NCBI GenBank assembly: GCA_026985075.1
Contig: JALSQX010000056.1
Location: 1 to 40,357, forward strand
Direction: 5' to 3'
Origin: Blastocatellia bacterium
Lineage (GTDB): Bacteria > Acidobacteriota > Blastocatellia > HR10 > J050
DNA length: 40,357 nucleotides
Every line of letters begins with the position of its first letter. Within the stretch, counting starts at the first letter, position 1. The notes beneath the pieces were generated by a model. The model ran no database searches, was not told the DNA's origin, and saw only the letters and a program-made list of their open reading frames with translations. Positions 23,245 through 38,013 of the stretch are shown one piece after another. The position numbers and the translations under genes are program-made.

Positions 23245-24493
23245 TGTTCATCAAGGAGATCCTCGCCCAGACGATCCGCAACATTCTGGCGCACAGGTTG
23301 CGCAGCCTGTTGACCATGTTCGGCATCGCCTGGGGCATCGCCGCGGTCATCCTCATGATCGCCATCGGGGACGGATTCAAGCTCGGCTATTACGAGCAGT
23401 TGAAAGTGCTGGGTAAAGATATCGCCATCATCTGGGGAGGACGAACGACGCGTCAAGTGGGAGGACAACGCGCGGGTCGGGATATTCGCCTCACTTATGA
23501 CGATGTCCTGGCCATCGAGCGAGAGTGTCCTCTCGTCAAGCATGTGACTCCGGAACTGAGTCGCTCCCTCCACGCCAGGAGCCCCTATAATTCGGGCGTG
23601 TTCGCCGTGCACGGCGTCGCTCCCATCTATCAGGAGATTCGCTCGATGAGGCTGGCCGGCGGACGGTTCATGAACCGGGCCGACTTTCAGGAGGCGCGAA
23701 CCGTCTGTGTGATCGGTGACGATGTGAGAAAGCAATTGTTCGCTGACCGCCGAGCGGTCGGATCGGAAATTCGCATCGAGGGGATTCCCTTTCTCGTCAT
23801 CGGCCAACTTCAGCACAAGGAGCAAAACAACTCCTACGGTGGACTCGATGACGAGAAGATTTTCATCCCCTACACGACGATGATCAAACACTTTCCCGAT
23901 CCGCGCCCATCCGTTCCTCCGCGATATGTGAGCAACATCGTACTGGTCCCCATTTCCGCCGATCGACACGAAGCCGCCATCCGGCAGATGAAGACCGTAT
24001 TGGGCCGACTTCACGGCTTCGATCCCGACGATGAAGGGGCGTTGTGGATATGGGATACGGTGGAGAGCGCCCAGATGGTCGCCAGCATTTTCGATTCCAT
24101 GCAATTGTTCCTGGGCTTCATCGCCGTGGTCACGCTGAGTTTGGGCGGCGTCGGCGTGATGAACATCATGCTCGTCTCGGTGGCCGAGCGCACGCGAGAG
24201 ATCGGCTTGAAGAAAGCCATTGGCGCCACCCGGCGAAGGATTCTCTGGGATTTCTTCATCGAATCGCTGACGTTGACGTTCCTGAGCGGAACGGTTGGCG
24301 TGCTCTTCGCCTGGGGAGCCAGCGCGCTGGTCAATCGCCTGCCCCTGCCCGCCTATTTCGCTGGATTGCCAATCACCCGCACCACCGCCGTGACCGCCTT
24401 TCTGATCCTGACGGCAGTGGGCATTCTCTCTGGCCTCTATCCAGCCCGTCGGGCGGCTCACCTGACGCCCGTAGAAGCTCTGAGGACCGAGTG

Positions 24494-24494
<1 letters not shown>
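23241..24494 (+). CDS. MacB/FtsX-type ABC permease, first copy
   Basis: 417 residues. TM1 (M-F-G-I-A-W-G-I-A-A-V-I-L-M-I-A, about 26-41) is followed by a periplasmic MacB core domain of about 230 residues, then three TM helices with the FtsX signature G-G-V-G-V-M-N-I-M-L-V-S-V-A-E-R-T-R-E-I-G-L-K-K-A-I-G-A-type coupling loop near residue 305-335. The end P-A-R-R-A-A-x-L-T-P-V-E-A-L-R is the family hallmark. Unlike MacB it lacks a nucleotide-binding domain, so it needs a separate ATPase of the LolD/MacB type. It overlaps the adaptor gene by 4 bases and the second permease by 1 base. Export of a lipid, peptide or lipoprotein substrate is family knowledge; the actual cargo is unknown. Confidence 0.9.
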
Positions 24495-25744
<1,250 letters not shown>

Positions 25745-27401: not shown

Positions 27402-30400
27402 GTGAACATATCCGGGTTCGCCCGCCTGGCGTCAGTTGTCGGGTTGTGGTTGATTCTCTGTGGCGGTCAAGGTTTCACGGTTCACAGCCACAAGCTCATC
27501 GCTCCCTCCCATCTCGCGCGGGAACAGATACCCTCCTCCCCTGAATGTCATCCCATCCATCTCCGAGACGGAGGACGTCTGCCCACCGTGTATACCGGTT
27601 CGCCGACGGCGATTGCGGCCTGGCAGCATCGCCGAGCCATCCCGCTGAGCTTGGCTTCCGGTGATCTTGACGAAGATGGGCGTGCCGATCTCATCGTTGG
27701 ATATGGTGGGGCACAAGGAGGGTTCCTCGTCGTTTACCAAGCTCATCCCCATGTTCTCGCCGCTTCTGGCGCCGGTCTCTCACCAGGAGGAGTCGGGTTC
27801 CATCTGGAGTCGACTGGACGCGACGTTCTACCGTTTCGAACCTCGGCTCGCCTGATAGAACTGCCCGAAGCCCCCCAGTGGCTCACGGTCGGAGACATCG
27901 ATGCTGATGGACATCTGGACGCGATCATCGCTGCCACGGGCGACGATCATCTCTACTGGCTGTCGGGCGACGGAACCGGACGATTGGCATCGCCGCGACC
28001 ATGGACGCTGCCGGGGACGGTGACGGCGCTCGTCGCTGGCGACATGAATCGGCGCGACGGGATATCCGACCTGGCGATTGGCATTATGGGTCCCGATGGA
28101 CCGGAAGTGCTGATTTTCGAATCACCACAGGGAGTGCCCTACAATCCGCCGGAGACTGTGCGCTTGCCGGGTCCGAGCGTCGCCATGGCCATTGCACGGT
28201 TAGACGGCGATGAGTTCGGCGATCTGGCCATCGTCGGTCGCGATGAGGATTCGGACGAATCCTATCTCGTCATCGTCCACGGACGACATTGGCGGTGGTC
28301 GTCGGGAGGAGGCACTGAGCGAGCATCGACGATCATGATCGATCGCCTCTCATTCCCTTCTACCTTGAGATCGATGGTGACCGGTCACTTCCTCGATGAT
28401 GAAAGTGATTCATCCCAACTCGCCCTCCTCGCCGATGAGGGGAGCATCCTCATCGTCGATTGGGATGAGAACAGCCCTGAGGAATGGCGAACGGGCATTT
28501 TGGCTGGAGACGTTCCATCCAGGGCAGCGCACCTGCTCGCGGCGTCAATTTCTGGTCTTCCAACCGATGATCTCGTCCTCATGGACGAGCGTCATCGACA
28601 GTTGCACCTCCTTATAGGGAGCACGGTGGCGTGGGAAGGGGGTGACGTCTCGCGCGTCTCATCGTTCCCGCGCGGCCGTGCTCCCGCTTTTTTTTTCCTC
28701 GCTGCTCCTCCAGTCACCGCACTGCCCATGCGTCTGAATGCTGATGCTCTGAGCGATCTGGTGGTCCTTACCAATGACGCCACAGCTCCAACCATCGTGT
28801 TGACGCAACCGATGGCGACGTTCATCGTCGATTCGATGGGCGATGGAAGCGATGAGAATCTGAGCGATGGTCTGTGTGATGATGGAACGGGGCACTGCAC
28901 CCTCCGTGCGGCGATTGAACAAGCCAACGCCCATCCCGGACCAGATCTCATCGCGTTTGATCTTCCTGAAGCCGACATCCCCACCATTAAACCCCGCCGC
29001 GCGCTCCCCCCTATTACCGATCCGGTCACTATCGATGGCACGACCCAGCCGGCCGGCCGAGTGGAACTGGACGGCAGCGCGGCCGGGGCGGCGGTCGATG
29101 GGTTCCGCATTGTGGCCGGTCGCAGCGTCATTCGCGGACTGGTCATTCATCGCTTCGATGATGATGGCATCGAAATCGTCTCTCGAGGTGGTAATATCAT
29201 CGAAGGGAATATCATCGGCGTCGACGCGACGGGGACGAAAGCGCTGGGCAACTCTTTCACCGGCATTCACGTCATCGATTCGGCGAACAATATGATTGGA
29301 GGTACGGCTCCTGGTGCGGGCAACATCATCTCAGGGAATCGATTCCACGGTATCGAATTAACGGGGCCGAACGCCCGCGATAACCGCATCCAAGGCAACC
29401 TCATCGGCACCGATGCCACCGGGACGAGCGTGGTAGGGAATCTCTTTGCCGGCGTGTTCATCAACGATGCTCCGGGCAACATCATTGGAGGAACAACGGC
29501 GGGAGCCCGTAACATCATTTCGGGCAATTGGGATGGCATTCGCATCACTGGTGCTCGGGCCACAGGCAATGTGATTCAAGGAAACTTCATTGGCACGGAG
29601 ATTGGTGGCCGCCGGGTGCTCGGCAACGCCGGCGATGGCGTCTGTATCGCGGATGCTCCTGGCAACACGATTGGTGGCCCGTCGCCTCGAGCGCGGAATA
29701 TCATCGCCGGCAACAATGCCCGCGGCGTGTTCATCACCGGGCATCGGGCCCAGGGCAATGTGATTCACGGCAACTTCATCGGCACCGATCACACGGGAAC
29801 CAGGACGCTGCCCAATGCCACGGGCATCCTCATCAACGAGGCTTCCCAGAACGTGGTGGGAGGAACACGGTCGGGAGCGCGCAATGTCGTCTCGGGCAAT
29901 GGAGATGGGATCTGCATCATCGGTTCAGGGGCCACCTCGAATTTGATCGGAGGCAATTTCATCGGCACCGATGCCACCGGCCGGAGCATCCTGGGAAATT
30001 CCCAAGATGGCATCATCATCGACCGAGCCCCTGGAAACACCATCCGCCAAAACGTCATTTCCGGAAACAACGCGCGAGGCATCTTTCTCTTCGGACGGGA
30101 GGCCGCCGACAACCTCATCGAGGAGAATTTCATTGGCACCGATGTCACCGGCACGATGGGCCTCAGTAACCTCTTCCACGGCATATTCATCAACAATGCC
30201 CCCCGGAATGCGATTCGGCGGAACGTCATTTCCAGCAATAACCTCATCGGCGTCCTCATCTACGGTCCTCAAGCGAAGAGGAATCAACTCGGCGAGAACC
30301 TCATCGGCATCGATGCGACCCGGTCTGAGGCCATGGGAAATGCCGTCGGCATTTTCGTCGCCGAATCGGCCAGCCATAACATAATCGGGGCAGCGAATGT

Positions 30401-30893
30401 CATCGCCTTCAATGGTGGCGACGGCGTATTCATCGAATCGGGGACGGGGAATACCGTCACGTCCAACTCCATTTTCTCTAACGCGGGTCTGGGAATTAAT
30501 CTGGGCGCGGATCGGGTGACGCCCAACGATGATATGGCTGGCCGCGAAGATGCTGATGCCGGTGCGAATAATCTACAGAACTTCCCCGTCCTTCATGAGA
30601 TCACTGCCGAGGACACTCTCCTTCACATCACCTACTCGATCACCTCCACGCCCGGGAATTCGCACTATCCCATCAGGGTAGAGTTCTTCAAAGCCGATGC
30701 CAGCGGCCAAGGACAACAGTATCTGGGAGCCGATGTCTACACATCGGCCGACCGCATTGACGGCGGCATCAAGCGGGTATCGTTCAAAGTGGAGAGCGCG
30801 CTGAGGGCCGGCGACTGGATTGTCGCCACGGCGACGGATCAGGATGGGAACACGTCGGAATTCTGCCCGCCGGTGAAGGTCCAATCTCAGTGA
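27402..30893 (+). CDS. Secreted FG-GAP/CSLREA/parallel beta-helix protein
   Basis: 1163 residues, starting at GTG 27402 with AAGGAGGAG upstream. A signal peptide spans about 1-29. Residues about 84-420 hold FG-GAP/VCBS-like repeats with acidic Ca-type loops (S-G-D-L-D-E-D-G-R-A-D-L, V-G-D-I-D-A-D-G-H-L-D-A, A-R-L-D-G-D-E-F-G-D-L). About 472-505 is a CSLREA-type domain (F-I-V-D-S...C-T-L-R-A-A-I-E-Q-A-N-A). About 598-1016 are seven degenerate modules of 55-65 residues (N-x-I-x-G-N-x-I-G-T-D-x-T-G-T...N-I-I-S-G-N) forming a right-handed beta-helix. A beta-sandwich-like tail ends it, with no sorting signal or TM visible. Likely a large exported surface or matrix protein that binds or cleaves polysaccharide; no catalytic residues were recognised. 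It stands alone in its transcript. Confidence 0.85.
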   Translation: MNISGFARLASVVGLWLILCGGQGFTVHSHKLIAPSHLAREQIPSSPECHPIHLRDGGRLPTVYTGSPTAIAAWQHRRAIPLSLASGDLDEDGRADLIVGYGGAQGGFLVVYQAHPHVLAASGAGLSPGGVGFHLESTGRDVLPFRTSARLIELPEAPQWLTVGDIDADGHLDAIIAATGDDHLYWLSGDGTGRLASPRPWTLPGTVTALVAGDMNRRDGISDLAIGIMGPDGPEVLIFESPQGVPYNPPETVRLPGPSVAMAIARLDGDEFGDLAIVGRDEDSDESYLVIVHGRHWRWSSGGGTERASTIMIDRLSFPSTLRSMVTGHFLDDESDSSQLALLADEGSILIVDWDENSPEEWRTGILAGDVPSRAAHLLAASISGLPTDDLVLMDERHRQLHLLIGSTVAWEGGDVSRVSSFPRGRAPAFFFLAAPPVTALPMRLNADALSDLVVLTNDATAPTIVLTQPMATFIVDSMGDGSDENLSDGLCDDGTGHCTLRAAIEQANAHPGPDLIAFDLPEADIPTIKPRRALPPITDPVTIDGTTQPAGRVELDGSAAGAAVDGFRIVAGRSVIRGLVIHRFDDDGIEIVSRGGNIIEGNIIGVDATGTKALGNSFTGIHVIDSANNMIGGTAPGAGNIISGNRFHGIELTGPNARDNRIQGNLIGTDATGTSVVGNLFAGVFINDAPGNIIGGTTAGARNIISGNWDGIRITGARATGNVIQGNFIGTEIGGRRVLGNAGDGVCIADAPGNTIGGPSPRARNIIAGNNARGVFITGHRAQGNVIHGNFIGTDHTGTRTLPNATGILINEASQNVVGGTRSGARNVVSGNGDGICIIGSGATSNLIGGNFIGTDATGRSILGNSQDGIIIDRAPGNTIRQNVISGNNARGIFLFGREAADNLIEENFIGTDVTGTMGLSNLFHGIFINNAPRNAIRRNVISSNNLIGVLIYGPQAKRNQLGENLIGIDATRSEAMGNAVGIFVAESASHNIIGAANVIAFNGGDGVFIESGTGNTVTSNSIFSNAGLGINLGADRVTPNDDMAGREDADAGANNLQNFPVLHEITAEDTLLHITYSITSTPGNSHYPIRVEFFKADASGQGQQYLGADVYTSADRIDGGIKRVSFKVESALRAGDWIVATATDQDGNTSEFCPPVKVQSQ
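29193..30449 (+). repeat. Seven degenerate coding repeats (beta-helix modules)
   Basis: Tandem modules of roughly 170-190 bases encode N-x-I-x-G-N-F-I-G-T-D-x-T-G-type units. DNA similarity is highest in the segments for F-I-G-T-D and N-I-I-S-G-N. The last three modules are shorter or lose the I-G-G-T segment. Such arrays are prone to unequal crossing-over and may vary in copy number between strains. Confidence 0.6.
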
Positions 30894-36114: not shown

Positions 36115-36633
36115 TCACATGCGGGGCAAAGGATCATTCCCTCCCCGGCCGGTCCTGCCGAGTCGGCGATCGATGGCTTCCTTCAATGACATGGCTTTCT
36201 CCCACAGCTCAGCCAGTTGTTCCTCTGGAACATCCCCTCGCGGTCGTAATTCCCACGCCCCTCTCAGTGCGTCGGTCAGATTCTCCAGGTGACGCACGAG
36301 GATCAATCGCAACAAATCACGGGTGAGATTAATCCGAACCAGCTTCACCCGCGGTCCCCGAAAGAATCCCAACTCCTCCATGATTCGCTCTTCAGCAGCG
36401 ATTTGCGCAGGGGTATGTCCCTCGTAGAGCTTCTCTCGATGCTCGTCTTGTCCCTCGAGCACGAACTCAAACCGTTTATCGGCGCGCAAGAGTCTCACGA
36501 ACTCCTCAAATGGAGGAACCGGCAATGAACTCTCTCGTTGAAGCCTCAGCCAGAGTTTCCTCACGGGGACGATGACGTCTTCATCGGCGGCGAGCAAGCG
36601 CTCCGCCAGATCCAAAACCTGATAGATCATCAT
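36115..36633 (-). CDS. Unrecognised 172-residue protein, possible winged-helix N-terminus
   Basis: I do not recognise the family. The protein is acidic/basic mixed, soluble and mostly helical, without signal or TM. Residues about 1-60 (L-A-E-R-L-L...V-I-V-P-V-R-K-L-W-L-R-L, then F-E-E-F-V-R-L-L-R-A-D-K-R-F-E-F-V) have the helix-helix-strand rhythm of a winged helix, but similarity is too weak to call. The middle carries E-G-Q-D-E-H-R-E-K-L-Y-E-G and an E-L-G-F-F-R-G-P-R-V-K-L-V-R-I segment; the C-terminus has two amphipathic helices. Tandem ATGs at 36633 and 36630 follow GGAGGAGG with 4-7 bases, so expression looks real. A strong promoter and the 36909-36986 stem-loop lie about 275-390 bases upstream on the same strand and may form its leader. 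Confidence 0.6.
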   Translation of the reverse strand: MMIYQVLDLAERLLAADEDVIVPVRKLWLRLQRESSLPVPPFEEFVRLLRADKRFEFVLEGQDEHREKLYEGHTPAQIAAEERIMEELGFFRGPRVKLVRINLTRDLLRLILVRHLENLTDALRGAWELRPRGDVPEEQLAELWEKAMSLKEAIDRRLGRTGRGGNDPLPRM

Positions 36634-36908
36634 ACGACCTCCTCCCAGAGAGCCCGGGCACTGACCACTGGCCAGCATGCCCTTCATGGTTGCCGACCTT
36701 CATCCGACAAGGTGTTCTGCAGGAATCGCCTCCACGATGTATGTCAGGTGGCGACATCGGAGGGATCGAAGGATTCGCCCAGCGAACACGCTTCCTGAAC
36801 GAGCGCGGTCCCTGCCCCGAGACCAACAGGCACGGCTTCACTCGTCCTTCTCCCTCCCTCACGGGCCCCTCATGCTATGTTAGAGAAAAAGAACCTCAGC
36901 AAAATCGT

Positions 36909-36986
36909 GAGAGCAACCGTCCCGATTACTGTGTAACTCCGTGGCGAGAGTCATGTTAACAATAGTAATCTGGAACGGTCGCTCTC
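36909..36986 (-). ncRNA. Candidate structured RNA: 78-base stem-loop with 22-bp stem
   Basis: On the minus strand GAGAGCGACCGUUCC (36986-36972) pairs with GGGACGGUUGCUCUC (36923-36909): 13 Watson-Crick and 2 G-U pairs. After a single bulged A, GAUUACU (36970-36964) pairs perfectly with AGUAAUC (36930-36924). A 33-base apical region holds a further UGACUC/GAGUUA stem. On the plus strand the two G-U pairs become A-C mismatches, which favours the minus strand as the functional RNA. The promoter at 36996-37024 would start transcription 1-4 bases before the stem. A U-rich tract follows about 18 bases after the stem (GTTCTTTTTCTCT). It could be a small RNA, or the 5' leader of the gene at 36633. 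No known RNA family is recognised. Confidence 0.5.
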
Positions 36987-36995
36987 CGGGGCTAT

Positions 36996-37024
36996 ACAAT
37001 AAGCCATTCAGACACCTTTGTCAA
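36996..37024 (-). promoter_or_regulatory. Sigma-70 promoter directly upstream of the stem-loop RNA
   Basis: On the minus strand a perfect TTGACA (37024-37019), 17-base spacer, TATTGT (37001-36996). The predicted start is near 36988. The plus strand has an overlapping TACAAT (36995-37000) that could help transcribe the VOC gene, though its -35 is weak. Confidence 0.55.
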
Positions 37025-37185
37025 CCATTTTCTGTCCCCCGCTCGCTCCCGGGCAGAGAGGTGAACCCTCCCTCACATCCGGATATCCTGGATCGATCAT
37101 TTTTGCCTCCGCACCGGTCGGCGCGTATTGTGCGTGATCCATCGGTGGCCAAAACGCGCATCTCGTGCTACGATGAACATTGACG

Positions 37186-38013
37186 ATGGTTCGATTCAAG
37201 AGCATTCGCGTGGCTCTGCCGGTGAAAGATGTGAGACAGGCGGCCGCTTTCTTTGCCGAATTTCTCGGCTTCCATGTCGTCGAGGAGGGCGTTCAACGCC
37301 TGATACTGGGACATGGAGATCTTCGCCTGATGCTCATGAAAGTGGAGCCGGGAATGTCGCCTCCTCCCTCACCACTCTATGTGCAACTCACCGTCGACTC
37401 GCCATGGCAGGTGGATGAGCTGGCTGAACGGGCTCAACGGCTTCATATCCCTCTGCTCCAGGAACGAGTGACCGAATCCACGGGAAGGTGTTCCCTGGTC
37501 TGTCTGGGACCGGATGACCTCATGCTGGAGGTCGTCTATGAACCGGAGCGGCCCACGAGCTTCGCGCCCGAATCGGGCATGGCCCATCGAGCCGAAGCGC
37601 CCCTCCCTTCTCAGCCGTCGATTCCACTCAGCCCTCCATCTCCAGCCATACCCACGCAGGGCCGGGACTACCTCCTCCTGGCGAAAGAGCGATTGGCCAA
37701 GATCAAAGAGGAGCTGGCGCGCCTCTCGGTAGGGTTCTCACATGAGGACATTGCGACGATTCTCGATGAAATGCGAGAGAAAGTGACCAAGCGCTCTCGA
37801 GAGGCGGCAGAAAAGGTCGCCGCGAGCGCAGAACAAGAGTCGTCGCGCCATCCCCCTTCGCGGTCGGTAGAAGAGACGTTGGCTCAATACAAGCAACAGG
37901 TGCAACGGCAGTTCGAGCCGGAGACGCCGGGTGAGGAGGAAAGGCTCAAGCCAGTGCAAAAAACGCTCGCCCCCGCTCCCGATCGATCATCGTCCAACCG
38001 GCGAGACGAATAA
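37186..38013 (+). CDS. VOC (glyoxalase-like) domain protein with long helical C-terminal tail
   Basis: 275 residues. Residues about 3-120 form one vicinal-oxygen-chelate domain: S-I-R-V-A-L-P-V-K-D-V-R-Q-A-A-A-F-F-A-E-F-L-G-F, then V-Q-L-T-V-D-S-P and L-V-C-L-G-P-D-D-L-M-L-E-V-V-Y-E. The usual metal ligands (His/Glu on strands) are mostly absent: Val replaces the first His, though the late E in L-E-V is present, so a dioxygenase or glyoxalase activity is doubtful. A Pro/Ser-rich linker (125-160) leads to a charged helix (L-L-L-A-K-E-R-L-A-K-I-K-E-E-L-A-R-L, 163-180) and Glu/Gln/Ala-rich segments to the end. The ATG at 37186 is preferred to a TTG at 37180; the Shine-Dalgarno is weak. It looks like a binding or scaffold protein with unknown partners. 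Confidence 0.72.
   Translation: MVRFKSIRVALPVKDVRQAAAFFAEFLGFHVVEEGVQRLILGHGDLRLMLMKVEPGMSPPPSPLYVQLTVDSPWQVDELAERAQRLHIPLLQERVTESTGRCSLVCLGPDDLMLEVVYEPERPTSFAPESGMAHRAEAPLPSQPSIPLSPPSPAIPTQGRDYLLLAKERLAKIKEELARLSVGFSHEDIATILDEMREKVTKRSREAAEKVAASAEQESSRHPPSRSVEETLAQYKQQVQRQFEPETPGEEERLKPVQKTLAPAPDRSSSNRRDE

Follow-up and report, generated by a model that had tools for sequence, protein, structure and literature searches.

The window, a stretch of 40,357 nucleotides from a Blastocatellia bacterium (contig JALSQX010000056.1), carries in one of its intergenic regions a long hairpin placed directly behind a sigma-70-type promoter, and comparison of two species indicates that both the promoter hexamers and the hairpin are under strong purifying selection. 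We regard the element as a plausible new, genus-restricted structured RNA, and we give an even chance to the view that it is a conserved RNA read from the minus strand, making up the opening ~85 nt of a 5' leader that extends over ~356 nt ahead of a gene encoding a winged-helix-like protein. The features considered are the following, in the direction of the minus-strand transcript.

36996..37024, minus strand: predicted sigma-70-type promoter TTGACA-N17-TATTGT, expected transcription start about 36990-36988
36906..36988, minus strand: long hairpin at the predicted RNA 5' end (2 bp, 15-bp stem, bulged A, 7-bp stem, apical 3 bp and 6 bp)
36835..36902, minus strand: partly conserved tail containing the CU-rich GGTTCTTTTTCTCTAACA (36895-36878) and a stretch rich in purines; may form a weak second hairpin
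36634..36834, minus strand: remaining, poorly conserved part of the putative leader, as far as the Shine-Dalgarno sequence GGGAGGAGG
36115..36633, minus strand: putative downstream gene, small protein with a predicted winged-helix-like N-terminal domain
37180..38013, plus strand: divergent glyoxalase-domain gene (Pfam Glyoxalase, 5e-09), with an orthologue in the same place in the second species

Promoter and hairpin

The initial annotation had placed the element in a region of 552 bases with no gene; the region is indeed gene-free and measures about 546 bp, from ATG 36633 to TTG 37180. The promoter had been read correctly in sequence and coordinates, with TTGACA at 37024-37019, a 17-nt spacer and TATTGT at 37001-36996 of the minus strand, and both hexamers are kept (12/12 identical) in G001, the genome of a second species of the same genus, in which the spacer differs at 9 of its 17 positions. 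A promoter scan on both strands of 36550-37260 returned exactly one promoter-like site, against 0.3 expected, and in the orthologous region of G001 the same promoter is the sole promoter-like site found. The first arm of the hairpin, CCGGAGAGCGACCGTTCC, begins 6-7 nt past TATTGT, and transcription is predicted to start right at the hairpin base, as had been proposed. From sequence conservation, the pattern across hexamers and hairpin looks like that of a used promoter and transcript start. About 80 intergenic bases further upstream (37041-37120) are largely missing in the sister species.

The 15-bp stem with two G-U pairs, the 7-bp stem and the single bulged A were all found as described: stem 1 pairs 36986-36972 with 36923-36909, the bulged A lies at 36971, between the two stems, and stem 2 pairs 36970-36964 with 36930-36924. 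The extent given to the hairpin was right for these 22 bp and overlooked an apical stem, which folding added (36961-36959 with 36934-36932, and 36952-36947 with 36940-36935, GACUCU pairing with GGAGUU in the apical stem-loop), together with two outer pairs (36988-36987 with 36907-36906, with a bulge at 36908). The minus-strand RNA folds at -51.8 kcal/mol (z -5.95, with none of 200 shuffles as good), and in a GC-corrected ranking the hairpin is the second-strongest fold locus of the whole window. Any inverted repeat folds well on both strands, and the plus strand of this region also does so (z -6.4), so that fold energy alone cannot pick the strand; the minus strand was chosen because of the wobble pairs and the promoter. 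Elsewhere in the window, a very stable hairpin on the plus strand (28627-28698, z -5.2), followed by nine T and resembling an intrinsic terminator, sits inside a 1163-aa frame (27402-30893) with FG-GAP and beta-helix domains, between these domains.

Conservation in a second species of the genus

A search for orthologues in 98 related genomes gave one real match, in G001 (contig C356), with 86% identity over 152 bases; the only relative having the locus thus carries the element too. Gene order is the same in this genome, with the divergent glyoxalase-domain gene, the element, the small protein and an AMP-binding ligase, and the glyoxalase-domain gene, which is not thought to be part of the element, serves as a synteny anchor. 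The hairpin differs at 5 of 86 positions. As a neutral yardstick we used the fourfold-degenerate sites of three flanking genes, which are 69% identical (299/435), that is, 31% divergent, and at this rate the figure for the hairpin has a P of about 8e-9. The flanks of the conserved block are about 40% different or deleted: on the glyoxalase side 89 positions differ or are missing over 155 bases, and the 195 positions before the small-protein gene (36640-36834) contain 79 differences.

The G001 hairpin folds alike (z -8.23), and its RNA reaches -47.3 kcal/mol on the equivalent strand versus -35.9 for the complement. Two substitutions fall within the stems; in each case a U-A pair becomes U-G on the minus strand, where the plus strand would have an A-C mismatch. 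Together with the strand-specific fold energies they agree with the wobble argument by which the initial annotation had favoured a minus-strand RNA. Searching relatives and building a covariance model, as had been suggested, yielded a conserved orthologue and, over the hairpin pairs of these two sequences only, no broken pair, two one-sided changes that keep pairing and no two-sided change. The earlier proposal of a structured RNA read from the minus strand is supported by an orthologue with conserved promoter and hairpin and by wobble-preserving changes, at the level that two genomes allow.

The same comparison bears on an improbable reading of the element as DNA, according to which a protein regulating the promoter would use as its operator either the inverted repeat or the TTGTTAACA palindrome of the loop, with RNA pairing being incidental. 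Its position directly downstream of the promoter, a loop as conserved as the arms and the ability of the plus strand to form a hairpin would all suit an operator; however, 22-bp arms with G-U pairs and a bulged A do not form a perfect DNA symmetry, and the substitutions keep RNA pairing, not DNA pairing.

Distribution and copy number

A covariance-model search of 162 genomes of the class and 396 of the phylum (overlapping sets), run under stricter filtering, by which weak matches can be overlooked, gave no convincing match beyond the genus, and the element seems confined to one genus. There was likewise no match in the phages, plasmids and viral contigs searched, and the surroundings of the related gene in another member of the family lack a comparable intergenic region. 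Other relatives gave weak BLAST matches of 20-32 bases; of these, L004, L005, L007, L008, L009 and L019 were folded, and the long hairpin was present in none. The hairpin region has no Rfam 15 match at the gathering score, only sub-threshold chance matches, so the statement that no known family fits was right as far as Rfam 15 goes. Acido-1 (RF01686) and Acido-Lenti-1 (RF01687) are structured non-coding RNA candidates of Acidobacteria (PMC2864571), the phylum of the element, which matches neither at the gathering threshold or at E up to 10.

The element is single copy in both genomes according to the covariance model, and also by BLAST in its own genome; dispersed copies, the mark of REP/REPIN sequences or MITEs, were found in neither. 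This weighs against the suggestion that the hairpin is a miniature mobile element, or what is left of a REP/REPIN-like hairpin, that entered the locus before the two species diverged. REP/REPIN palindromes go with RAYT transposases (PMC3733652), and the element resembles them in being a hairpin-forming intergenic sequence in a genome with one Y1-transposase gene; related genomes of the class, moreover, contain many dispersed hairpin repeats with partly similar arms. The element differs from REP/REPIN sequences in its single copy, its conservation in the same syntenic place, far above neutral, and its attached promoter. It has, besides, no match to the REP-like repeats beside its own genome's transposase gene, and a class-wide repeat query had no match in the window genome or in G001. 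We consider a mobile origin very improbable.

The Y1-transposase gene mentioned above (contig C95, about 24100-24852 and flanks) is RAYT-like, has two Y1_Tnp matches and is the only one detected in the genome; on its flanks the 36-nt REP-like repeat GGAGGTAACGAACCCCGGAGGCGAGCCCCGGAGCCT occurs in seven copies, partly within 219-nt units. The dispersed hairpin repeats GACTGGAGCGC...GCGCTCCAGTC occur in 46 of the 162 genomes, in other families of the class (L041, L042, L045, L046 and L057-L086), often as REPIN-like inverted pairs about 110 bp apart. In a different family of the class, dispersed hairpins have arms that partly resemble those of the element; homology was rejected, as the E-values (0.005 in G111 and 0.65 in G161) are at chance level over 162 genomes.

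The putative leader and the downstream gene

Beyond the hairpin, the tail (36835-36902) differs from G001 at 16 of 68 positions, with identity denser in the first 25 nt, and the CU-rich GGTTCTTTTTCTCTAACA keeps 17 of its 18 positions. The tail may form a second hairpin: consensus pairing is predicted in both species with wobble changes only, at a stability no better than that of shuffles (z 0.2 and -0.8). The U-rich tract that had been reported after the stem does exist as a pyrimidine tract; it is the CU-rich stretch, ~13 nt beyond the stem, and not a terminator tail. A scan of the minus strand before the gene found no terminator in either species, nor is there a U-tract directly 3' of the stem, and the hairpin was accordingly rejected as an intrinsic terminator. 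A leader peptide was also discarded, since the hairpin contains a single ATG frame, of 24 aa, which lacks the start codon in G001, where two indels also shift it; with its frames broken by these indels and no shared start codon, the hairpin is not a conserved peptide.

The predicted start lies 356 nt from ATG 36633, compared with 366 nt in G001, and since no further promoter or terminator was found over this distance, a leader of the small-protein gene is the simplest reading; the nearly constant length between species also counts for it. RNA polymerase would start at 36990-36988, so that the hairpin base would form the very beginning of the transcript, and the closed 5' end might confer resistance to 5'-end-dependent decay. 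The conserved arms and loop could then be bound by a regulator that sets the stability or the translation of the message; this regulator might be the winged-helix-like protein that the gene encodes.

Stem-loops at the 5' end that protect the mRNA are known from the ompA-type leader hairpin, and the present element is like them in that a long putative leader opens with a stable hairpin just downstream of a sigma-70 promoter; it differs in an unrelated sequence and in the conservation of arms and loop beyond what stability needs, and a role in decay would be argued here by analogy. The last difference counts against the leader, as a 5' hairpin for stability alone needs no conserved loop and arm sequence. 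Also against it, conservation is absent from the ~200 nt that separate the conserved block from the start codon, which is unusual for a riboswitch-like leader, and in another family the gene's homologues lack a hairpin of this kind upstream.

These observations bring in the main rival of the leader, a small regulatory RNA that stands on its own, about 90-155 nt long and made from the same promoter and hairpin; its CU-rich stretch would act as an anti-Shine-Dalgarno seed on other mRNAs, and the gene would be read from a separate promoter that escaped recognition. Conservation ends near 36835, well before the gene is reached, leaving room for a separate RNA, and both the conservation of GGTTCTTTTTCTCTAACA and the gene homologues without hairpin would fit. 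The minus strand, however, lacks an intrinsic terminator in both species (Rho-dependent ends or processing are possible), no second promoter was found, and the CU-rich stretch may be paired in the second hairpin. We judge a small RNA unlikely, though a serious candidate, and favour the leader because neither a terminator nor a second promoter was found. The initial annotation had left small RNA, leader and mobile element side by side; a conserved minus-strand RNA is retained, with the leader preferred, and the mobile element is set aside.

The protein encoded downstream of the putative leader is 90% identical in G001, and its identity is about 45% in four genomes from a different family of the order. 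The protein has no NCBIfam match, only a sub-threshold Pfam match to DUF2016, and no significant match in a PDB sequence search. In its AlphaFold model the N-terminal domain has a pLDDT of about 80-90; Foldseek gave no hit at E <= 0.001 with the model, and the best VIA-align match to this domain is 2od5 (Z 10.9, 85 residues, 3.3 A), RNA-bound Egalitarian being matched as well (Z 9.2-9.6). On the strength of these VIA-align scores we tentatively describe the N-terminus as winged-helix-like. The small-protein family (window 36115-36633 and L034-L037) bears no Pfam or NCBIfam name, and in the other family of the order (L034-L037) the gene adjoins, as read from ORFs, a glucosamine-fructose-6-phosphate aminotransferase-like gene and an ABC transporter.

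A predicted fold of a nucleic-acid-binding type would count for the leader reading, and it makes binding of the protein to its own leader thinkable, without being evidence of it. Protein-binding autoregulatory mRNA leaders exist as a general kind, and the element is like them in that a conserved hairpin precedes a gene whose product may bind nucleic acids; it differs in lying 270 nt from the start codon, and binding is a candidate only. The link between hairpin and encoded protein is guesswork, and the winged-helix-like family is not known to us to bind RNA. A genus-specific class of leaders, in which the winged-helix-like product of the downstream gene binds the long 5' hairpin and so regulates itself at the RNA level, seems to us a long shot.

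Significance

The wider reach of the finding is limited because the element seems confined to one genus. Within this poorly studied acidobacterial genus, it represents a selected hairpin just behind a conserved promoter that belongs to no described RNA family. As a small RNA it would join the few candidates in this phylum; if the leader reading is true, it would offer a first handle on a conserved downstream protein that has no assigned function.
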